Source of the DNA: Candidatus Brocadia sp.
GTDB lineage: Bacteria > Planctomycetota > Brocadiia > Brocadiales > Brocadiaceae
Length of the DNA: 64,000 bases
Reading direction: 5' to 3'
Assembly: GCA_011525665.1 (NCBI GenBank)
Contig: WYAU01000071.1
Location: 1 to 64,000 of the forward strand
The notes beneath the pieces are model-generated. The model worked only from the letters and a program-made list of their open reading frames with translations. It made no database searches and was not told where the DNA came from. This document shows, piece by piece, positions 14,341-25,546 of the stretch; position 1 is the first letter of the stretch, and each line of letters starts with the position of its first letter. The position numbers and the translations under genes were made by a program.

Positions 14341-17088
14341 TCATCTATTAAGCACCAGCCCCCCATTTGACCGGTACAAGAGCAGGTTTTCCGCAATGAT
14401 ATCATGAAAGATATCCCGGCCACCTTGATTGTCAATAAAGATTCCCATACCGCGAACTTCCTCGGTCTGCGATGGTAACGAAACTCCCCGGCTACGATCG
14501 TTTGCATCATAGGTATCGTTCCCCTGAAAATCCGCCAGGATACCAATGCCTTTTTCCAGGCCAACGCCTTGCGAAGTGGTTTCGCTGCGATACGTGTCAT
14601 TCCCGCAATCATCCACCAGAAATCCGATGCCTGTATCATGTCCGCATCCCTGTGAAACGCCAAAGGTACATTCGTAGATGTCGTCTCCCGACGCGTCCTT
14701 CAGAAGGCCAATGGCCGAATGGATACCCGCGCCCTGGGCATAGCGACCCGCATAATACGTATCGTTCCCCTCGTTGTCATATAACAATCCCAGGGAGAAA
14801 TAATAGCCACTGCCCTGAGAAAAATAGTCTCCATGATACCGATCGGCGCCTTTTTGATCGATAAGTATGCCAATTCCACCTGATGCACCGACGATGGTTT
14901 CTTCCGGACGGATGCCCATCCCCATTCCCTGTGACATGGACTGAAACGACTTCTCCGGATCCCGGAAATCCGGATATCCTCCCCCGGTAAAGTAATAATC
15001 ATTTCCCTGCGCATCGATTAAAGCCCCAAATCCCTTAGTAAAACCCACACCCTGGGCGAACTGCCGGCTAAAATAAATATCGTTACCCCCCAGATCACTG
15101 AGAATCCCTGCCCCGAAGAAACCCACCCCCTGGTTGATGACGCGACCGTCATAAAAATCGTTACCATCGCTGTCCAGTAACAACCCGACACCAAACAGGC
15201 ACGTCCCCTGCGAATAATCTTTCCCCACATACTGGTCATTCCCCCGATAATCTATCAGGATCCCAATTCCAAAACTTCCGGTTCCCTGAGAGAATGGGGC
15301 GTCCGTATGGTAAATATCGTCTCCGGACAAATCAATACAGAGGGATACCGGAATATCTTTACGAGAAGAACCTGCGTTATTAAAGTAACAATCATTCCCC
15401 CCGAGGTCGATGATGACCGCAGCATCGGCATAATAATAGGACGTACCTTTCCCACCTACAACGATTTTTCCGATACTGGTGTCCTGCACAAACAGGATAT
15501 CACCGGCAAAATCCTGTGATGCCCCTGTGCCCCCTCCCCCTAACCCCCTCCCGCCAGGGGAGGGGGTGCTATCTGTGGATACATCATCGGTTTCCCTTCC
15601 CCTTGTTCCTCCAATATCCTCTGCAAGTTTAAGGTGCATGGCTGCTTCATCAGGAATTTCCGGCTGATGTGCACCCTGAAGGGATGCTGGCAGACGAAAT
15701 GGCAATACCTTCGTTTGCATTGCTTTGGGGTGAGTCTTTTCCTGCCCGGCTATGCCTTGTTCATAAGTAAAAAGGGTAAGTTGACTCAGCAGCAATGATA
15801 TCGCATGAAACAACTTTACCAGGTCAACCTTTTGAGATAATGCCAGTACCCTGGCGAGGTCCTTTGGTTCAATCTTCTCGTTGGGCGACCAAACTTTATG
15901 GGCGTTTTGACAGAGGAACTCAGCTTCGTCCCGGGACAAGTCCCGGAATGCCTCTTTGATAAGAGAAACGATGGATGGCAACCTATCTACAACGCCCTGT
16001 AATCGCCCTTGCAAACCGGTCGTTTCTCTTTTTTGTAATTGCTCAGTATGCAATGGTATCCTTGGAGATTCGTCAACCACCCCTCTTTCCTCTCCTTCAC
16101 AAGGAGGAGACAAAGGGGCGGTTGGCAAAAAAACCTTCCCGCCGGCTCCTGCGGCGGATGGAAACGAAGAGAAGGTTTCAGGTTCAAAGTTCTGTGTATT
16201 CAATTTTACATCCAGCAATACCGCTGCACACCCTATTTGAGCACAGGCATCCTTCTTACACAACGCATCGACGATGTCCTGCCCAATCTTCGGAATATCA
16301 AAGGGGTGCAACATGAAATAATTTACGACGGACAAACGAAACGGATTGGCCTCGTCATTGGATTGAAATCCTTCCCGGACATAGATCTCTTCGCCAATCC
16401 GCTGCAATGTTGCGCCGAGCATATCCCGGTATCTTTCGTTTTTGATTGCACATTCGATAAAACTCGTTCCTTTGTGTTCTGAACGAGGGGGTATTTTTCT
16501 TTCTTCACCCGGAGATAGATTTTCTACCTCCCCATCCCGCCCTTGCGAGGGGGGGGTATTTTTATCCTCTTTTGTAAGTCCGTGGCTTGCCTTTGGGATA
16601 AAAGGAGTTATAGGTTCCGTTACATTTTTGAGCAGTTTCGCAAAAAGCCTTGGGTAAAACACGATTTCTGTAGTATCGCGGGAAACCGTAAGTGCGGGTG
16701 TACCCCCCGCGCCCAGGGCTTCTATGGTCTTTTTGAACTGGATGAGATTGAGTTCGCCCCTGCCTGTGGCAGGTACATCATTAACCTTTGTAATAATATC
16801 CCCAACCCTCAAACCAGCCTCAGCAGCAGGCGATCCCCGGGTAATCTCCCTTACGAGTATCCCTTTCCCTTCTGCATTTTCCATAAAGATACCCAGCCAC
16901 CCTTTATTGAAATTGACCTTGTCTTTCTCAAATCCCAGGCCTTCAAGATCAAAAAAGTCTTTGGTATCAAAATCCTGCCCATCCACAGATACCTGTATAC
17001 CTTCGTCCGCGAAAGTATTTGAGTGCACCGCAGATAGTACGAGAACAGAAAAATAAAGGAATATGAAATACAAGATTCTCTTGAGCAT
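14341..17088 (-). CDS. Exported PDZ protein with C-terminal GND/SQG tandem repeats
   Basis: About 915 residues from the ATG at 17088, chosen because a signal peptide (KRILYFIFLYFSVLVLSAVHS) then starts the protein; an ATG at 17142 would bury it. A PDZ domain follows (GILVREITRGSPAAEAGLRVGDIITKVND), then a long helical region. The last 380 residues hold about twelve units of 26-27 residues with the pattern G-N/D-D-x-Y, about five residues, S-Q-G-x-G, and G-x-G-x-L-x-D. This suggests a beta-solenoid or calcium-binding surface structure, but it is not the nine-residue RTX repeat. Three low-complexity Pro/Gly/Glu-rich patches are translated palindromic repeats (listed separately). It is probably periplasmic or cell-surface; function unknown. 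Confidence 0.75.
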   Translation of the reverse strand: MLKRILYFIFLYFSVLVLSAVHSNTFADEGIQVSVDGQDFDTKDFFDLEGLGFEKDKVNFNKGWLGIFMENAEGKGILVREITRGSPAAEAGLRVGDIITKVNDVPATGRGELNLIQFKKTIEALGAGGTPALTVSRDTTEIVFYPRLFAKLLKNVTEPITPFIPKASHGLTKEDKNTPPSQGRDGEVENLSPGEERKIPPRSEHKGTSFIECAIKNERYRDMLGATLQRIGEEIYVREGFQSNDEANPFRLSVVNYFMLHPFDIPKIGQDIVDALCKKDACAQIGCAAVLLDVKLNTQNFEPETFSSFPSAAGAGGKVFLPTAPLSPPCEGEERGVVDESPRIPLHTEQLQKRETTGLQGRLQGVVDRLPSIVSLIKEAFRDLSRDEAEFLCQNAHKVWSPNEKIEPKDLARVLALSQKVDLVKLFHAISLLLSQLTLFTYEQGIAGQEKTHPKAMQTKVLPFRLPASLQGAHQPEIPDEAAMHLKLAEDIGGTRGRETDDVSTDSTPSPGGRGLGGGGTGASQDFAGDILFVQDTSIGKIVVGGKGTSYYYADAAVIIDLGGNDCYFNNAGSSRKDIPVSLCIDLSGDDIYHTDAPFSQGTGSFGIGILIDYRGNDQYVGKDYSQGTCLFGVGLLLDSDGNDFYDGRVINQGVGFFGAGILSDLGGNDIYFSRQFAQGVGFTKGFGALIDAQGNDYYFTGGGYPDFRDPEKSFQSMSQGMGMGIRPEETIVGASGGIGILIDQKGADRYHGDYFSQGSGYYFSLGLLYDNEGNDTYYAGRYAQGAGIHSAIGLLKDASGDDIYECTFGVSQGCGHDTGIGFLVDDCGNDTYRSETTSQGVGLEKGIGILADFQGNDTYDANDRSRGVSLPSQTEEVRGMGIFIDNQGGRDIFHDIIAENLLLYRSNGGLVLNR
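15530..15566. repeat. Palindromic dispersed repeat inside a coding sequence (copy A)
   Basis: Arms CCCCCTCCCC (15530-15539) and GGGGAGGGGG (15557-15566) form a hairpin with a 17-base loop. It is translated in frame as a Pro/Gly-rich patch (SPGGRGLGGGG) in the repeat protein, just before its repeat region. Confidence 0.7.
16075..16123. repeat. Palindromic dispersed repeat inside a coding sequence (copy B)
   Basis: It begins AACCACCCCTC and ends AAAGGGGCGGTT, with a nearly self-complementary middle (CTCCTTCACAAGGAG). The same outer sequence and layout appear in the non-coding copy at 30144-30180, so both belong to one family. It is translated as APLSPPCEGEERGVV in the repeat protein. Confidence 0.75.
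16526..16558. repeat. Palindromic dispersed repeat inside a coding sequence (copy C)
   Basis: ACCTCCCC at one end and a run of G ending GGGGGT at the other, with CCCTTGCGAGGG in the centre. It resembles the reverse complement of the element at 30144-30180. It is translated in frame as NTPPSQGRDGEV. Length and frame are such that the host reading frame stays open. Confidence 0.7.
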
Positions 17089-17516
17089 AATGAAGTTTGC
17101 TCTACTATAGCATTTTAAGGAAAATTCTGGGTTTTCTTGCACTACTTCCCAGGAAGGATTATTCTAATAACGCAACAGCAATAGCGGAAATTCAGGATAA
17201 TAGAACCAAGGGCCAAAAGCAATGGGAAAAAATAAGGTACAGGAATTTGAAACGACGGGTTCCTCCCCTTGATACTTACCGTTTGTAAGGGCATTACGGC
17301 TCTTCCGGCGGTTTTACCAGGGAAATTCAGACAAGGTATGGGAAAAGAGGTATGTGCCCATACTGTGGGAAAGAGATGAATGAACCACCAGAAAAACCAT
17401 TTACCAACACATAATGTAGAAATAAAAAAAACGGTTTTCATCTCCTCCTCCATTTCATTACCTTCCCCTTTTCTCCGTTAAAAATACCTTGATAAGAAAC
17501 ACTATTTAGGCTATAA
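17089..17516. other. Intergenic stretch with a zinc-ribbon-like remnant
   Basis: About 430 bases between the divergently transcribed repeat-protein and HD-domain genes, so promoters for both should lie here, but none could be assigned. The plus strand at 17331-17414 carries a short open segment ending in a C-P-Y-C motif that is duplicated on the far side of the HD gene (listed separately). The rest is AT-rich without clear structure. Confidence 0.45.
17331..17414 (+). pseudogene. Zinc-ribbon-like tail fragment, copy 1
   Basis: The frame reads T-R-Y-G-K-R-G-M-C-P-Y-C-G-K-E-M-N-E-P-P-E-K-P-F and then stops. A stop lies shortly upstream in the same frame, so there is no room for a full gene. 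The Y-G-K-R, C-P-x-C and E-P-P-E-K elements recur at 18769-18834. It is either a fragment of a lost gene or a very small protein. Confidence 0.4.
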
Positions 17517-18752
17517 ATGGGTCGGTTTAAACCCATCGTCTATAAAATCTGGAGTCTTAAAACCATGATAAGAAAGGCGTTGCTTTTAAAGATTTTCAGC
17601 GCTGCCTATATGCAAAGATGGAATGACAAGATACGTCCCATCGAACTCATCGAACTGGATAAGCAGGCGCATAAAATGGTAATTGCCTATTTCCTGGGCA
17701 AATTTGTGGAAGAAGATCCGGGATTTCAGTGGACAGATATCATAGAAGGCGGAATCTTTGAGTTATTGCAGCGCATCGTTATCACCGATTTAAAACCTCC
17801 CATTTTTTATAAAATCAAGGAAGATGAGGATAAATACAAGCGATTAAACGAGTGGGTTTATAGAGAATTGGAATTCATTATATCACCCCTCGACCCCGAT
17901 TTTTGTAAAAGGTTTAAGGGTTATTTTTCAAAGAGCGACGACACGTTGAACAAGAGGATTCTAAGCGCAGCACACTTTTACGCCACAAAGTGGGAATTCA
18001 ACATTATAGAACGCGCGAATCCGGATGGCTACGAGATTGGTGCGATAAAAAGAGACCTGCAACAAAGACAGGAAAGATACTACGACTTAAAGGGTATGGA
18101 ACAATTGATAAAGCACGTGAGATATAAAAACTTTATCGACCTGTGCGGACAGCTCAGATTCCAATCAAGATGGGCACACCTCCACAGAATACCAAAGACG
18201 TCTGTTCTGGGTCACTCGCTGTTTGTTGCCATCCTGTCGTATCTTTTTTCCCTGGAAATCAAGGCTTGCAGGAGGAGGTGCATTAATAACTATTTCACCG
18301 GGCTGTTTCACGACCTGCCTGAGGTACTCACTCGGGACATTATTTCGCCTGTAAAGAGGTCGGTCGAAGGGCTGAGTGATCTGATAAGGGAATATGAGAA
18401 GGAACAGATGGAGAAAGAAGTCTATGGCCTTGTTCCGCAGGAATGGCATCCGGAGATTAAGATGTGTACGGAAGATGAGTTTGACAGTCTGGTGACAAAG
18501 AATGGGAAACGGGAAAAAGTAACCAGTAAAGACATCAACGACAGGTACAACGAAGATGCCTTTAACCCGAAAGACGGAGAACTCGTGAAAGCGGCCGATA
18601 GTCTTGCCGGATTCATAGAAGCATCCGTAGCAATCCTGAACGGAAGCGGCAGTCCGGAACTGCAGGAGGCAAGGTTGTCATTAAAAAAACAGTATGAGAG
18701 GGCAAATATTGCAGGCATAAATTTTGGGGAAATCTACGCGGATTTTGACTGA
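17517..18752 (+). CDS. HD-domain phosphohydrolase-like protein (YfbR-like)
   Basis: 411 residues; a later start at the ATG at 17565 is also possible. The HD metal site is visible: SVLGHSLFVAILSYLF supplies one histidine, GLFHDLPEVLTRDIISPVK the H-D pair, and GELVKAADSLAGFIEA the distal aspartate. Proteins of this group hydrolyse nucleoside monophosphates or related phosphates. The first 200 residues are an extra N-terminal region I do not recognise. It has no partners on the same strand nearby, and a duplicated zinc-ribbon-like fragment flanks it on both sides. The general enzyme class is sure, the substrate is not. Confidence 0.75.
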   Translation: MGRFKPIVYKIWSLKTMIRKALLLKIFSAAYMQRWNDKIRPIELIELDKQAHKMVIAYFLGKFVEEDPGFQWTDIIEGGIFELLQRIVITDLKPPIFYKIKEDEDKYKRLNEWVYRELEFIISPLDPDFCKRFKGYFSKSDDTLNKRILSAAHFYATKWEFNIIERANPDGYEIGAIKRDLQQRQERYYDLKGMEQLIKHVRYKNFIDLCGQLRFQSRWAHLHRIPKTSVLGHSLFVAILSYLFSLEIKACRRRCINNYFTGLFHDLPEVLTRDIISPVKRSVEGLSDLIREYEKEQMEKEVYGLVPQEWHPEIKMCTEDEFDSLVTKNGKREKVTSKDINDRYNEDAFNPKDGELVKAADSLAGFIEASVAILNGSGSPELQEARLSLKKQYERANIAGINFGEIYADFD

Positions 18753-19073: not shown

Positions 19074-21230
19074 ATGTTCAAACCAGATCAACCAATTCAA
19101 TCCTCTAAAGAAGATATTTTAGGTAGAAAATCATTCGCACAATCACTTGGCAATGCTATTCTCAATTACAAAGAAAAAGATAGTATTGTAATCGGACTTT
19201 TTGGTGCATGGGGTTCCGGAAAAACCTCAATAATCAATATGGCATTAGAGCATATTGACTATGTATGTAAAGATACGAAGAGTGAGAGCAAACCTATCAT
19301 TGTTAGATTTAATCCGTGGAACTATTCTGATCAAAATCAACTAATTAGCCAGTTCTTTAAACAATTATCTGTTACCTTAAAACGAAAAGATTATTCTGTC
19401 AATATTAGGAAAGTAGGGCAAAAATTAGAAACATATACAAAGTTTTTTGAGCCAGTAAAATTAATTCCGGTAGTTGGTCAGCTTATGGGAATGGTAAAAG
19501 ATATTATTCAAACCACAGGCAAGACCTTAAAAGTTTTTGGTGAACACAGAGAAAATGATTTGAATAGCATACGTAAAGAATTAAACGATTTATTGGCTAA
19601 TCAGTCCCATAAAATTATTATTATCATCGATGACATAGATCGTCTTAGTAGTATTGAAATTCGACAGATTTTTCAATTAATAAAATCATTAGGTGATTTT
19701 CCCAATACAATATACTTACTTGCTTTTGACAAGGATGTAGTTATAAAGGCGTTAGAAAGAGTACAGGAAGGTTCTGGCTTAGAATATTTAGAAAAAATAG
19801 TACAAATTCCTTTTGACATTCCTCTTATCTCGAAACAAGAAGTAGAGCGTTTGTTATTCAACCAACTTGATGAATTGATTAAAGATATACCAGAAGATAG
19901 GTGGAATCAAATTTATTGGGATTACATTTTTCACTATAGTGGATTAAAACACGTCTTTAACAATATCAGAGATGTCACACGGTATATTAATTTGTTAAGA
20001 TTTGGTTTTAGCCTGGTAAAAGATGAGGTAAATGTGGCTGATTTTTTTGCTCTTACTGCAATTCAAGTTTTTATGCCAGAGGTTTACGACGGAATTAGAG
20101 ATAATAAAGATATTTTTTTAGGGGTACATGATTCAAATTATGAAAAAGACAAAGCGGTAACAGAGCAAGCTAAAAAACGTTGTGATGAAATAATCAGCAG
20201 AACGAATGCATTACAGCAAGAAAAACTAAAGGAAGTTTTGACAAACTTATTTCCAAAACTTAAATCTATTTATAGGAGCTTTGGGTATCATTATGGAAGT
20301 ATGGGAGATTGGCGAAGAGAAGGTCGAATATGCAGCCCAGATATTTTTGAAACATTCTTTAGCCTCTCCATCCCAAAAGGAGAATTTTCTCAAAAAGAAA
20401 TAAGGACAATCTTATCACTGGCCAATAGCTATGATACCTTTGCCGAGGCATTACTAAGGCTTAGTGAGGATGGGAGAATAGTCAAATTTTTAGAGCGATT
20501 AGGGGATTATACTGACAAGGATATTCTTGAGGAAAATATAGAACCTGTCATAACAGTTTTGATGGATATTGGTGATTTATTTCCTGAAGTCGATGCCTAT
20601 TCTTTGGGTAGTGAAATTCCTAGAATAATTCACAATTTAACTCATCAATTACTTAGCCGTTTTGACAGTCATGAAAAAAGGCTATCCATTTTAAAAAACG
20701 CCATAGAAAAAACAACAAAAAGTTTACACACGATAGTATATGAAGTAAACGAACAAGAACGAGAATACGAAAAAGATGATTCAAAGGAAGATTCCGAATT
20801 AAAAGAGAAAGCGGCGGTAGATGCTATGTTGCTTGAATTGAAGAAGCTTATTTACGACAAAATTGAAAGTTGGACAAACGACGGTCGGTTATTAAAACAC
20901 AATCATTTAGCTTTTATACTTGTTTATTGGGAAAAGCGGGGAAAACAAGAACAGACCGATGGATTTGTAAGTCATACTATAAAAGACGATGACGGATTAA
21001 TTGATTTCATTAAAGGATTTTTAAATAAATCTGTAAGTACAAAGGGAATACAATGGCGTATTTATCTTAAAGTTATAGAAAAATTCGTGGACTTAAAACA
21101 GATAGAACCAAGAATAAGAAACTTCTTTTCTTCTCCCAAGTTTGAACAGTTAGACGATAATGACAAAAGAAAATTGGCTATAAAGGCTTTTTTAGATACC
21201 ATCGATGGGGAAATTGAGGACACGTCATAA
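19074..21230 (+). CDS. KAP-family P-loop NTPase
   Basis: 718 residues. Walker A is GLFGAWGSGKTSIINM at about residues 41-56, followed by the family's VRFNPWNYSDQNQL element. Walker B is KIIIIIDDIDRL, then IRQIFQLIKSLGDFPNTIYLLAFD, the KAP sensor region. KAP NTPases include phage-exclusion proteins such as PifA and often sit in defence islands; many have membrane segments in the NTPase domain, but here only a weak hydrophobic patch (LIPVVGQLMGMVKDII) is seen. The sequence is AT-rich compared with neighbours, and RAYT/REP elements follow directly, which suggests an acquired gene. A defence role is inferred, not shown. Confidence 0.88.
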   Translation: MFKPDQPIQSSKEDILGRKSFAQSLGNAILNYKEKDSIVIGLFGAWGSGKTSIINMALEHIDYVCKDTKSESKPIIVRFNPWNYSDQNQLISQFFKQLSVTLKRKDYSVNIRKVGQKLETYTKFFEPVKLIPVVGQLMGMVKDIIQTTGKTLKVFGEHRENDLNSIRKELNDLLANQSHKIIIIIDDIDRLSSIEIRQIFQLIKSLGDFPNTIYLLAFDKDVVIKALERVQEGSGLEYLEKIVQIPFDIPLISKQEVERLLFNQLDELIKDIPEDRWNQIYWDYIFHYSGLKHVFNNIRDVTRYINLLRFGFSLVKDEVNVADFFALTAIQVFMPEVYDGIRDNKDIFLGVHDSNYEKDKAVTEQAKKRCDEIISRTNALQQEKLKEVLTNLFPKLKSIYRSFGYHYGSMGDWRREGRICSPDIFETFFSLSIPKGEFSQKEIRTILSLANSYDTFAEALLRLSEDGRIVKFLERLGDYTDKDILEENIEPVITVLMDIGDLFPEVDAYSLGSEIPRIIHNLTHQLLSRFDSHEKRLSILKNAIEKTTKSLHTIVYEVNEQEREYEKDDSKEDSELKEKAAVDAMLLELKKLIYDKIESWTNDGRLLKHNHLAFILVYWEKRGKQEQTDGFVSHTIKDDDGLIDFIKGFLNKSVSTKGIQWRIYLKVIEKFVDLKQIEPRIRNFFSSPKFEQLDDNDKRKLAIKAFLDTIDGEIEDTS

Positions 21231-21260
21231 GGTGCTACCAAAATATCTTATAACAAAGAA

Positions 21261-21284
21261 AGGGACACGGTGCTCCGTGTCCCT
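21261..21284. repeat. REP hairpin 1
   Basis: Perfect 10-base arms AGGGACACGG and CCGTGTCCCT around TGCT, followed by a tail ending ACGGTACAATCGGGG just before the first RAYT start. It lies 30 bases after the KAP stop codon. Confidence 0.9.
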
Positions 21285-21324
21285 ACATTGGCATAACGGT
21301 ATAACGGTACAATCGGGGGGAAAA

Positions 21325-21636
21325 ATGGCATATGATCCGGACAAACACCATCGCAGATCAATCCGGTTAAAGGAATACGATTATTCCCGGGCGGGTACGT
21401 ATTTTGTAACGATATGCACCTATAACAAGGAATGTATTTTTGGCAATGTTATAAATGGTGAAATGAGATTGAATGAATATGGTATGATTGTTGAAAATGA
21501 ATGGGTAAAAACAGCGGAAATACGTTCAAATGTTATCATAGACAAATACATTGTGATGCCGAATCATGTGCATGGGATAATCATCATTTTGGATGATGGT
21601 AGGGACACGGTGCTCCGTGCCCCTACATGGGAATAA
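21325..21636 (+). pseudogene. REP-associated tyrosine transposase (RAYT), 3'-truncated copy
   Basis: Starts at the ATG at 21325 (MAYDPDKHHRRSIRLKEYDY), 103 codons. The Y1-transposase HUH motif is present as MPNHVHGIIIIL, but the frame then enters a REP hairpin and stops, so the C-terminal half, with the catalytic tyrosine helix, is missing. It is closely similar to the full copy that follows at 21658. An upstream ATG at 21205 overlaps the KAP gene and the REP and is unlikely to be used. Without its tyrosine it should be inactive. Confidence 0.85.
21601..21624. repeat. REP hairpin 2, at the end of the truncated RAYT
   Basis: Arms AGGGACACGG and CCGTGCCCCT around TGCT, one mismatch. It lies within the last codons of the truncated RAYT and is followed by the same ATAACGGCACAATCGGGG tail that precedes the second copy. 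Confidence 0.88.
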
Positions 21637-21657
21637 CGGCACAATCGGGGAAAAACA

Positions 21658-22206
21658 ATGACCTACGACCCGGAAAAACACCACCGACGATCAATCCGGT
21701 TAAAGGAATACGATTATTCCCGGGCAGGCGCTTATTTTATAACGATATGCACTTATAACAAGGAATGTATTTTGGGAAAGGTGACAAACAGCAAGGTGCA
21801 ACTAAATGAATATGGTATAATCGTTGACAATGAATGGACAAAAACGGCGGAAATACGTTCAAATATTATCATAGATAAATATATTGTGATGCCGAATCAT
21901 TTGCATGGGATAATCATCATTTTGGATAACGGTAGTAGTAGGAACACGGGGCACCGTGTCCCTACATTTGAACAATTTGGCAGACCGACCTCCAATTCTA
22001 TCCCAACGATAATTCGGTCGTTTAAGGCGGTAACAAAAAAACGGATTAATGAAACCAGAAAATCCTATGGCAAAGCGGTGTGGCAACCCAGATTTTACGA
22101 ACATATTATCCGAAATAGAGATGAATTAGACAAGATCAGGCAATATATTATTGACAATCCTTTGCAATGGGAACTTGATAGCAAAAATCCCGATAACACA
22201 AAATAG
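21658..22206 (+). CDS. REP-associated tyrosine transposase (RAYT)
   Basis: 182 residues, full length. The HUH motif is MPNHLHGIIII, and the C-terminal segment WQPRFYEHIIRNRDELDKIR followed by QYIIDNPLQWELD carries the catalytic tyrosine region of TnpA-REP proteins. These single-copy, domesticated Y1 transposases bind and nick REP hairpins. Between the two halves the protein contains an insert, SSRNTGHRVPTFEQ, which is a translated REP hairpin. It is bracketed by REP units, making a classical REPtron. Probably still functional, although the insert may matter. Confidence 0.9.
   Translation: MTYDPEKHHRRSIRLKEYDYSRAGAYFITICTYNKECILGKVTNSKVQLNEYGIIVDNEWTKTAEIRSNIIIDKYIVMPNHLHGIIIILDNGSSRNTGHRVPTFEQFGRPTSNSIPTIIRSFKAVTKKRINETRKSYGKAVWQPRFYEHIIRNRDELDKIRQYIIDNPLQWELDSKNPDNTK
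21940..21963. repeat. REP hairpin 3, inside the RAYT coding sequence
   Basis: Arms AGGAACACGG and CCGTGTCCCT around GGCA, one mismatch. It is in frame within the full-length RAYT, at the same position where the truncated copy breaks off. Confidence 0.85.
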
Positions 22207-22215
22207 CATTGTAGT

Positions 22216-22239
22216 GGGGACACGGTGCTCCGTGTCCCC
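22216..22239. repeat. REP hairpin 4
   Basis: Perfect arms GGGGACACGG and CCGTGTCCCC around TGCT, ten bases after the RAYT stop, followed by the ATAACGGTACAATCGGGG tail. Confidence 0.9.
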
Positions 22240-22313
22240 ATGTTGATATATCAGCATAACGGTACAATCGGGGGAAAGAAACGAGGCAACCACCCTTGGG
22301 CAAAAAAACACGT

Positions 22314-23273
22314 TCAGTCTTTTTTTTGGGTGGAAATTTCAAAATATTTGTCTAACAATTCACCCTTTTTCTTTTCGTAATTTTCAGGAGAAATCAGTTC
22401 CTCTTCTAACAAACTCTTTAAAAGCCTCAGATGCTCTTTTAGTACGCGCGACGTTTCAGCTGTTTGTTTCATTCCGTCATTCACCGCTTCGTTATCAGCA
22501 CGATTGCTCTTCAGGGTAAAACCGGAGGCACTTCCCCCGTTACCTTCTTTCTCCTGCACGGGCTTTTTGAATACAACTTTTTGTTCAGCTTCAGCAACGA
22601 ACGGAATACTCTCATGCTTACGAAGGGGAATTATTAATGTGTTTTCCCGGTCTGGTTGCACTGACTGCCCGGAAACCGGGGATAGTTTCCACAATGCACC
22701 CTTTTTTATACTCAGTGGATTTTCAAACTCTATACCATTTATGATTATATTTTCTTCATCGGTATAAGGTCTCGTCAAATCCTGATGAATACGGCTAAAA
22801 ACAATATGTAAATTCTGCCCCACTATAAAAAGACAAAAATAGTTGTGCTTGTTTTTGATATAAGATCTTGTCAACGAATTATACACCAACAAATATTGTG
22901 TTGGCTTTAGTTGCGCGAAACCCGTCACAAGAAGGGGCGACAGGACGAACGCCATATCCCCTTCGGAAAATACCTGTTTCGTTTTTTTGGAACCCAAAAT
23001 CCCTTTTTCCTGAAAAAATATCTGAGAAAATATATCGGTCAGTTCCTTCTCTGAAAAATGATAGGGATGGCTGAGTCTTCCATAGGTAGCCGGAAAGCTT
23101 TCATTGAACTCTTTTATTTTAATAAAGCTATTTTCCTTTCTTATGATGGCATCATTTGCAATGCCAAAACTTCCCCCGTAAAAAAGGAAATAATTCATAA
23201 TGATTATTAATGCCGTGAGAAATACTTTGTGATTTTTATATCTATTGATATTCAAAACAGTCCCCTTTGTCAA
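22314..23273 (-). CDS. Hypothetical membrane-anchored protein with SHOCT-like C-terminus
   Basis: 319 residues. A hydrophobic segment near the N-terminus (VFLTALIIIMNYFLFYGGSFG, residues about 17-37) is a signal anchor or signal peptide. The middle is a mixed domain I do not recognise. The C-terminus ends in LKSLLEEELISPENYEKKKGELLDKY, the short helix-turn-helix seen in SHOCT-type oligomerisation motifs. It is the last gene of the minus-strand urea locus, about 100 bases after the response regulator, so it may be under the same control. Function unknown. Confidence 0.6.
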   Translation of the reverse strand: MTKGTVLNINRYKNHKVFLTALIIIMNYFLFYGGSFGIANDAIIRKENSFIKIKEFNESFPATYGRLSHPYHFSEKELTDIFSQIFFQEKGILGSKKTKQVFSEGDMAFVLSPLLVTGFAQLKPTQYLLVYNSLTRSYIKNKHNYFCLFIVGQNLHIVFSRIHQDLTRPYTDEENIIINGIEFENPLSIKKGALWKLSPVSGQSVQPDRENTLIIPLRKHESIPFVAEAEQKVVFKKPVQEKEGNGGSASGFTLKSNRADNEAVNDGMKQTAETSRVLKEHLRLLKSLLEEELISPENYEKKKGELLDKYFEISTQKKD

Positions 23274-23370
23274 TTAAGACAAAAAGCCCGTAACGGGTCA
23301 TTTTTTATTCAGCATGATATAAAAAAACTTACCCTTTTATGCGACAGAGAAAAAAACCATTCAAAGGCTT

Positions 23371-24063
23371 TTAAAGGGTTTCCTTTGGCTCTACATTCGC
23401 CAGCAAGCCCATCTTTATAGCATATTTTGTTAAACCAACGGCGTCGTGGATATTCAGTTTTTTCATGATACTCGTCCGGTGGTTGTTTATCGTATTGATG
23501 CTGATTAAAAAACATTTTGCAATCTCCTTACTGCTGTATCCCTCTGCCACCATGTACAAAATGGTCTTCTCTCGTTCCGTAAGCTTGTTGTATGATTCTT
23601 TGTCCGCATCAGAAATGGCGGCGTCACTTTTTTTACCCGTTACCTTCTCGACCAGCACTTTTGATACCGATGGACTCAAAAATACCTGTCCTTTCCTTGT
23701 CGCTTCTATGGCAGCAATCAAATCAGTATCGGTTGATTCCTTATTAAGATACGCTGATATTCCTATATCGAACATCCGTGTGATAAACTCTTTACTTTCA
23801 TACATGGTAAGAACAATGACTTTGGTATCGGGGCTGATTAATCGTATTTGTTTTGCGGCCTCTATCCCATTCATCCTGGGAAGAGAAATATCCAAGATAA
23901 CAACGTCAGGAAGGAGCGCTTCCACCTCTTTTATGGCGATCAATCCATCACTTGCCTCTCCCACGACCTCATAGATTTCATGCAGTTTCAGGAGTTGTCT
24001 GATTCCCTGTCTCACGATCGTATGATCTTCAACCAGCAAAATTCTCACCTTTTTCATCTTCAC
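23371..24063 (-). CDS. NarL/FixJ-family response regulator
   Basis: 230 residues. The receiver domain has the acidic pocket VEDH (residues 11-14), the phosphoacceptor Asp58 in VVILDISLPRMNG, and the conserved Thr and Lys further on (VLTMYESKEF; lysine of the fourth motif). The C-terminal LuxR-type helix-turn-helix is LTEREKTILYMVAEGYSSKEIA followed by LISINTINNHRTSIMKKL. It is encoded 28 bases after its kinase and next to the urea symporter, urease and transport genes, so a role in their transcription is the simplest inference. No binding site could be identified. Confidence 0.9.
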   Translation of the reverse strand: MKMKKVRILLVEDHTIVRQGIRQLLKLHEIYEVVGEASDGLIAIKEVEALLPDVVILDISLPRMNGIEAAKQIRLISPDTKVIVLTMYESKEFITRMFDIGISAYLNKESTDTDLIAAIEATRKGQVFLSPSVSKVLVEKVTGKKSDAAISDADKESYNKLTEREKTILYMVAEGYSSKEIAKCFLISINTINNHRTSIMKKLNIHDAVGLTKYAIKMGLLANVEPKETL

Positions 24064-24091
24064 ACCTCGTCGTCCTTTTTCCGATGCCCGG

Positions 24092-25546
24092 TTAACAGGG
24101 AACGTTTATGTAGAGAGTTGTACCTTTATTTATTTTTGAAACAATCTGAAAGTTCCCTCTCATGATGTCAACCATTTCTTTTATGGTAGTTATACCCAGC
24201 TTAAACTCCTCAGTCCCTTTTTCCCAGATGTCTTCGACATTAAAACCATGGCCATTGTCAATAACCCGCAAGGCAATCGTATCCGTTTCTGAAACAAGTT
24301 CAAGTTTTATCAGGGTTGCATTCGCATGCTTTATAACATTGGTTATCGCCTCCCGTACAATACGGAACAAATACATCTTCATGTTCGTAGGAATATTATC
24401 CTCTTTCACACTGCTATAGGTAACGATTCTTATCGGTAATCTTCTTGAAATTTGCTCGGTATAATTGTTTATCGTTGCAATCAATCCCAATTTCTCAAGA
24501 AGACTGTAATTGAGATTGAACGTTAAATCTTTTATGCTCCGGAAAACCATGTCCACGATCTTCCGGCAGTCTTCCACACACATTTTGAATTCATTATTCT
24601 GGTCAATGACACTTTTCAGATTGTAGCATTCCAGGAGTTTTATATTGATTTTTAATGCAGACATTGCCTGCCCGATCTCTTCATGGAGCACCTGAGACAA
24701 GTACCTCCGCTCATCCTCCTGAACCGAAATCATCTTATGAGAAAGTTTTTTCAATTCCCGGTTTTTCGCTTCTAAATTCCGATTATACTCCTTGATCTTT
24801 ATCTGGTCACTCCTGAGAGTATCCACCATTTTGTTGAATACCATCGATAGGGTGCCAATTTCATCATACTGATTGACATTTAACCTGACCGAAAGGTTCC
24901 CCTCCACAATTTTTTGGGCGGAATCCATTAATTTTGCCAGCGGATTTGTTATCGACGATGCAATCTTTACACTTAAAAAAATGCTGCATATCACGGTGGC
25001 TAAGAAAAAAAACAATATTGTTAAAGAAGCAGAATTAATAACGCTCCCCAGGAGATTTTGCAACGTACTGCTGTATGCATAATTCTCCTGCTTGAGAGCT
25101 TTGGCAATGGTAACGAGATTATTAATGTCTATTGACAGTGTTTTACTGTTGAGGGGCGAACGGGTCTTATATTGTGTGTGCAGTATCTCACAATGATTTT
25201 TCATTACATTAGCCAGTTGCAATAAAACCGTACTGCCAACGCACGCATTCTTTAATCTGAAAGATTCCTTCCTCATCGTATCCAGGACATTTAGAAAATC
25301 CTCGGTTATCTCTTGTTTATTCCTTTTTGCTTTATGTCTGCCTCCAACAGCCCTCAGTCTTTCAATGTTGGTCTCCAGATTACAGATTGATTCAATCCGG
25401 ACACGGCTATCATCTGTCAGGCATCTCTTGAGATAATTGACGCTCCCCAGCTTTACCAGAGCAACAATGGTGATAATTCCCAAAAAAATGATGATGATAA
25501 AATAGCCGTTAAACAAACGCGTACTGATACTATTTCTTGAAAACAT
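24092..25546 (-). CDS. NarX/NarQ-like sensor histidine kinase (HisKA_3)
   Basis: 484 residues. TM1 is at about residues 13-33 and TM2 at about 172-196, framing a periplasmic four-helix-like sensor of about 140 residues with no family match I can name. A HAMP linker and coiled coil follow. The HisKA_3 box is SVQEDERRYLSQVLHEEIGQ, with phosphoacceptor His288; the HATPase domain has EAITNVIKHANA and DNGHGF. It pairs with the NarL-type regulator immediately downstream. What it senses is unknown; by position, urea, ammonium or nickel status are candidates. Confidence 0.88.
   Translation of the reverse strand: MFSRNSISTRLFNGYFIIIIFLGIITIVALVKLGSVNYLKRCLTDDSRVRIESICNLETNIERLRAVGGRHKAKRNKQEITEDFLNVLDTMRKESFRLKNACVGSTVLLQLANVMKNHCEILHTQYKTRSPLNSKTLSIDINNLVTIAKALKQENYAYSSTLQNLLGSVINSASLTILFFFLATVICSIFLSVKIASSITNPLAKLMDSAQKIVEGNLSVRLNVNQYDEIGTLSMVFNKMVDTLRSDQIKIKEYNRNLEAKNRELKKLSHKMISVQEDERRYLSQVLHEEIGQAMSALKINIKLLECYNLKSVIDQNNEFKMCVEDCRKIVDMVFRSIKDLTFNLNYSLLEKLGLIATINNYTEQISRRLPIRIVTYSSVKEDNIPTNMKMYLFRIVREAITNVIKHANATLIKLELVSETDTIALRVIDNGHGFNVEDIWEKGTEEFKLGITTIKEMVDIMRGNFQIVSKINKGTTLYINVPC

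Follow-up and report, generated by a model that had tools for sequence, protein, structure and literature searches.

How did half of a RAYT gene come to stand directly in front of a complete one, with a REP hairpin at the junction? The question is raised by a locus in a genome of the anammox genus Candidatus Brocadia (same-genus relatives include Ca. Brocadia pituitae and Brocadia sp. WS118). In the window, by which we mean the whole stretch of 64,000 nucleotides that was analysed, we observe the element order KAP gene, REP1, leader, A1, REP2, leader, A2, REP3, B2, REP4, leader. A1 is the HUH half of a RAYT, and the adjoining complete RAYT consists of A2, an in-frame REP3 and B2, which carries the tyrosine. 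The features are as follows, with G numbers denoting genomes and C numbers contigs.

19074–21230, + strand: open reading frame of a KAP-family P-loop NTPase, 718 aa, a marker of the site (same locus in G009 and G027; 39-bp remnant in G006)
21261–21286, + strand: REP1, the 5'-type REP of copy 1, loop base T, left GTAG foot lost
21287–21324, + strand: leader 1, a RAYT 5' leader, containing GGTACAATCGG
21325–21636, + strand: copy 1, with the A1 half at 21325–21598 and HUH codons at 21565–21573, without a tyrosine half
21599–21626, + strand: REP2, chimeric: its left context is that of an internal REP, its loop base (T at 21614) and right context are those of a 5' REP
21627–21657, + strand: leader 2
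21658–22206, + strand: copy 2, a complete RAYT open reading frame of 182 aa, HUH codons at 21898–21906, Y-motif tyrosine Y163 at 22144–22146
21938–21965, + strand: REP3, the in-frame internal REP of copy 2, loop base A
21966–22206, + strand: B2, the tyrosine half of copy 2
22214–22240, + strand: REP4, a 5'-type REP, loop base T
22241–22280, + strand: leader 3, with no RAYT behind it, the probable start of a lost third copy
22297–25369, strand not assigned: downstream flank, syntenic with contig C147 of G006, marking the end of the RAYT array

All four REP units claimed in an earlier note on this DNA are present at these positions; an exact match of 22 nt links REP1 to REP4, and one of 19 nt links REP1 to REP2. 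The A1 half is open for 103 aa, including the HUH histidines, and its stop falls in leader 2. The spacer between the KAP stop and REP1 (window 21231–21261) is about 50 bp shorter than in G009 and the GTAG foot of REP1 is gone, consistent with a small deletion between AAAG repeats. Between 15000 and 30000 of the window there are no tRNA genes; further upstream, 14341–17142 on the minus strand encodes a 933-aa PDZ-domain protein with many repeated G/D-rich units containing SQG.

Copy 2 scores 26.4 bits against Pfam Y1_Tnp (cut-off 23), placing it on the Y1 transposase core, and its residues H81, H83 and Y163 are invariant across 23 sequences. The closest solved structure is that of E. coli TnpAREP (4er8), both by sequence (E = 2e-4) and by predicted fold (E = 3e-7). 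Confidence in the predicted model of copy 2 is lowest at residues 1–12 and 95–105, the latter being a loop in the stretch coded by REP3. The key motifs given for TnpAREP subclass 2.4, or RAYT group 4, are NH[IFV]H, WQ and YIxNNP (Table 1, PMC6006769). Here WQ is present, the histidine motif reads NHVH in A1 and NHLH in copy 2, and the Y motif, YIIDNP, is one residue off the listed form. The double-foot REP (GTAG ... CTAC) of that subclass is found as the 5' REP of the relatives G009, C99, G001 and G027; REP2, before copy 2, carries both feet, and REP1 is without the left one. The in-frame internal REP of the subclass is represented by REP3. Filing under the equivalog NF047646 of NCBIfam (REP-associated tyrosine transposase) was rejected, as copy 2 scores 66.9 bits and A1 27.9, below the curated cut-off of 80. 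Compared with IS200/IS605 insertion sequences, for which the criteria are mobility and subterminal hairpin ends, this genome has the RAYT in few, diverged copies.

The junction itself lies at REP2. The earlier note had placed a REP at the same internal position in both RAYT copies, and REP2 and REP3 do match in this way, A2 having 6 extra nt before its REP; the breakpoint likewise coincides with the REP, as the note's own test required, the left neighbour of REP2 being the end of a RAYT 5' half and its right neighbour a RAYT leader. In the Brocadia RAYT set, a pattern search found T as the loop base in 8 of 9 leader-type REPs other than REP2 (A in G004) and A in all 8 REPs that have both internal contexts; T also stands in the 5' REP of G008, which the pattern did not pick up. 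Since REP2 combines an internal left context with a 5' right context and a T, the switch would fall somewhere in 21599–21613, a stretch of about 15 nt in its left arm, provided that the loop base has not mutated, as the A in the leader-type REP of G004 indicates that it can. This make-up supports recombination of an internal REP with the 5' REP that heads the next copy, an exchange which is predicted to leave just such a chimera.

What follows REP2 in copy 1 is, as had been noted before, not the second half of the gene, and the tail found there, AATAACGGCACAATCGGGG, is of the kind that stands behind REP1 and REP4 as well; this tail is a RAYT 5' leader and not, as had been supposed, intergenic sequence. 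Searching 11 Brocadia genomes for the leader pattern with up to 2 mismatches gave 18 sites, with the reversed pattern as control. Apart from one 1-mismatch site on contig C47 of G008, every site with 0 or 1 mismatch is either immediately in front of a RAYT 5' half or at REP4. Two of the 2-mismatch sites (G000:C64:21632 and G006:C147:9694) are RAYT leaders as well, and the others are few and about as frequent as with the control. As leader matches precede RAYT 5' halves, the tail behind REP2 belongs to copy 2 as its leader. The RAYT leader has a TATAAT-like box, which might be read as a promoter element.

By the same reading, REP4 and leader 3 are probably the start of a third RAYT copy and suggest a formerly longer tandem array. 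The downstream flank of G006 aligns again from window base 22297, so that at most about 16 nt of the third copy would be left past leader 3. In G009 and G006 no REP of this kind directly follows the RAYT.

We then compared the same site in relatives, using a set with one genome per species, in which a scan of genome contigs gave relatives and no second strain. In G009 the KAP gene (81% aa identity) is followed by one complete RAYT, and G027 has the KAP gene and a RAYT that the contig end cuts off. Contig C147 of G006 is syntenic on both sides (15013–17517 and 22297–25369), still has 39 bp from the end of the KAP gene, and carries one RAYT at the site, with a single in-frame stop near its end. 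Among these genomes, one per species, the undeleted two-copy arrangement was not found at this site, and an intact A1–REP–B1 occurs in no genome examined. The pairing of a KAP NTPase gene with a RAYT directly behind it (window 19074–22206; loci L058, L061 and L063) recurs in G009 and G027 and, decayed, on contig C36 of G006. Unlinked RAYTs (L060:2960-3075, which is G000:C99; L059 before 8646; L061; L062; L067) share the same 60–80 bp upstream of their 5' REP, which suggests a preferred target or a larger mobile unit. We take this shared stretch to read like the start of a HEPN-type gene, and behind the RAYT of G000:C99 lies what is presumably a nucleotidyltransferase-like open reading frame.

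An internal REP is a general property of these genes. Of 104 RAYT loci scanned, 83 distinct relatives could be mapped, the rest being duplicates or not mappable at both motifs, and in each we took the linker, the stretch from HUH to the next SFK-like motif. Of the 83 linkers, 57 contained a hairpin (score >= 8). In 20 rounds of dinucleotide shuffling the number averaged 2.35 and peaked at 5, and of 83 equal-length control stretches just before the HUH motif 1 had such a hairpin. Taken with the exact matches of 22 and 19 nt within the locus, this excess means that the observed REP arrangement is not due to chance. With 2 mismatches allowed, the hairpin core turned up again outside the gene, no more than 400 nt away, in 33 of the 57 (5000 permutations among loci: mean 1.7, maximum 8), the loci not being independent and falling into 20 core clusters, the largest with 17 members. 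A GTAG foot was recognisable in 42; of these feet 24 are read in frame 0 and 18 in frame 1, and the frame in which TAG would be a stop does not occur among them. In-frame REPs inside RAYT genes of subclass 2.4 have already been published (Quentin et al. 2018, PMC6006769); in what we consulted of that study our counts agree with it and add numbers, the internal REP itself being known. As it is general in the subclass and published there, we rejected the internal REP as a product of duplication. A more distant RAYT of the same genome (L004, G000:C28:17735-18265) has at this internal place a different REP type, GGACAATTCATGAATTGCCC, further copies of which lie on either side of the gene. In the linker of a cyanobacterial RAYT (L133:5001-5684) a long run of NVET-like repeats stands beside the internal REP, looking as if REP pieces had been amplified in frame.

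The two 5' halves in the window are diverged, matching over 282 nt at 85% (85.5% over 270 aligned columns). Each is closer to a RAYT of another species, A1 to that of G027 and A2 to that of G009 (89.6% in both cases). By the Nei-Gojobori method over 90 codons, dN/dS between A1 and A2 is 0.086/0.557. For A1 against six other relatives the ratio is 0.04–0.11, and 0.04–0.15 over all seven sequences compared, including A2; third positions hold 20–35 of the differences between A1 and each of the seven. By these substitution patterns, A1 has stayed under purifying selection. Its low ratio therefore indicates divergence under selection, the truncation being either young or followed by continued constraint.

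Trees of the 5' half give a composite picture. An AU test of A1 and A2 as sisters did not reject this grouping over the whole half (p = 0.185); in segments picked after looking at the site list, it was rejected for the middle 50 nt (p = 0.021) and not for the first and last parts (p = 0.389 and 0.423). Near the REP, a tree with A1 and A2 as sisters is as good as the best one, and sites 21576 and 21585 there are common to A1 and A2 and occur in none of the seven compared RAYTs, which would fit an exchange between the two. The overall pattern is a mosaic. A "clear snapshot" of a fresh duplication, as the locus had been described, is not what these data depict: identity is 85.5%, dS is 0.56, each half is closer to RAYTs of other species, and the pattern is mosaic. 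We rejected a recent tandem duplication of a single gene within this species on the grounds of divergence and purifying selection on A1, with the caveat that the whole-half AU test leaves A1 and A2 as possible sisters (p = 0.185).

The proposal of a duplication followed by deletion between REPs therefore holds in part: the join within a REP and the chimeric REP2 with its 5'-type loop base speak for it, and its recency is not supported. In the account that we favour, the locus would have held two or more diverged tandem RAYT units, each made up of REP, leader, A, REP and B. The internal REP of copy 1 would have recombined with the 5' REP of copy 2, an event that took away the tyrosine half of copy 1, which would once have been in place, and left the chimeric REP2. 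A third downstream unit would have lost everything except its REP and leader, and later the first and second 5' halves would have exchanged some sequence. We hold this explanation as a whole, including the order of events, to be somewhat more probable than all others together. More probably than by RAYT catalysis, the exchange itself would have proceeded by homology or by slippage of strands at the hairpin. For exchange that depends on RecA, the 19-bp match at the join is on the short side, and slippage of replicating DNA is promoted by hairpins, and for this reason we favour slippage assisted by homology or the hairpin.

Alternatively, a single RAYT could have undergone unequal exchange on sister chromosomes, its 5' REP recombining with its internal REP, so that REP, leader and A were duplicated in one step and neither a full tandem copy nor a deletion ever existed. 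Such a single event would yield the same REP2 and suits the single-RAYT arrangement of G009 and G006; however, it leaves unexplained REP4 and the leader after B2, which those two genomes are without, and the divergence between A1 and A2 would require a later replacement of the middle of A1. We regard it as rather unlikely. Less likely again is a history driven by a RAYT itself, in which a putative cut at the foot of the internal REP was followed by joining or insertion of a REP-bounded unit from another RAYT lineage. The REPs here do have GTAG feet and hairpins, E. coli TnpAREP has been solved bound to a REP hairpin according to the title of entry 4er8, and the middle of A1 resembles another RAYT lineage. 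Judged by the loop base, the join falls either within the arm or at its left foot, a position that speaks neither for nor against a cut at the foot. That two RAYT copies were misjoined at a short repeat in metagenome assembly, to which the 111 contigs of this genome might point, is very improbable, given that exact repeats within the locus reach at most 37 bp and the REPs at the join match over 19 bp, that the place is 21 kb into a 117.5-kb contig, and that the own-genome matches listed contain no second location of A1.

Breaks near the internal REP are found in other RAYTs. Among 27 hand-picked stretches, mostly partial matches, 10 contained only an A half, 6 only a B half and 11 both. Four of the six B-only stretches start right behind the REP (L069 and L070, probably one event; L202; L207). 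Two of the ten A-only stretches end at the REP with sequence beyond (L071, L205), two reach the contig end soon after it (L197, L200), L063 keeps part of B behind the REP, and five have no REP at the break. The remnants starting or ending at an internal REP belong to G002, G005, G018 and G025 (B-only) and to G046 and G020 (A-only). Within 165 records of RAYT halves, many of them overlapping, the order A-A-B occurs only at the place in the window and, with the first A incomplete, in L108, from a cyanobacterium of the Xenococcaceae, where the first copy passes through its REP and joins the leader of the next copy some 10–20 nt later at a short microhomology. G001 and G008 are nearly identical over the leader and most of the A half (5 differences in 320); another 5 differences occupy the last 30 nt ahead of the REP, and 27 are found in the roughly 240 nt behind it. 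For this pair an abrupt change of identity exactly at the REP was rejected, as the drop begins about 30 nt earlier. Taken together, these cases are suggestive of breaks that tend to fall near the internal REP, not always in it. In G008 (L066, contig C2), about 820 bp are present between the RAYT end and the downstream flank that are absent from G001, with REP matches near the ends.

REP sequences were reportedly seen at the join points of tandem duplications by Shyamala, Schneider and Ames in 1990. There, likewise, short REPs act as recombination sites that duplicate or delete what is between them; the joins apparently lay between dispersed REPs outside genes, whereas here one partner is inside a transposase gene. 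REPs have been described as recombination hot spots, in the part of the account available to us (PMC11708052). GTAG REPs have also been found in frame inside open reading frames (Di Nocera et al. 2013, PMC3733652), where the hosts named in sections 15 and 16 are replication and repair genes, with RAYT genes unnamed. Subclass 2.4 shares with our locus the in-frame internal REP, reported as insertions, and the passages and sections of that study which we consulted (PMC6006769) do not describe loss, duplication or exchange of half-genes at it. No printed account of half-gene exchange at internal REPs was found in the accessible literature searched, PMC6006769 included. The internal REP of this RAYT subclass (PMC6006769) and REP-mediated recombination are thus already known; new are this instance and the evidence of RAYT halves gained or lost near the internal REP.

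The locus is, on well-supported grounds, a truncated RAYT joined at a REP, with a history that is longer and more complicated than that of a single duplication caught in a snapshot. A broader reading, which we consider doubtful at present, is that RAYTs of this subclass are modular, their HUH and tyrosine halves sharing one REP hairpin as a boundary and being lost, duplicated or exchanged there between paralogues, perhaps by their own enzyme. If true, this would provide both a built-in limit on the RAYT gene and a source of new combinations of halves. RAYTs are regarded as domesticated transposases, and why they are maintained is unexplained. The hairpin inside a subclass 2.4 gene is one that its enzyme may recognise, and this locus, together with the half-gene remnants elsewhere, suggests that the internal hairpin is also where the gene tends to break.
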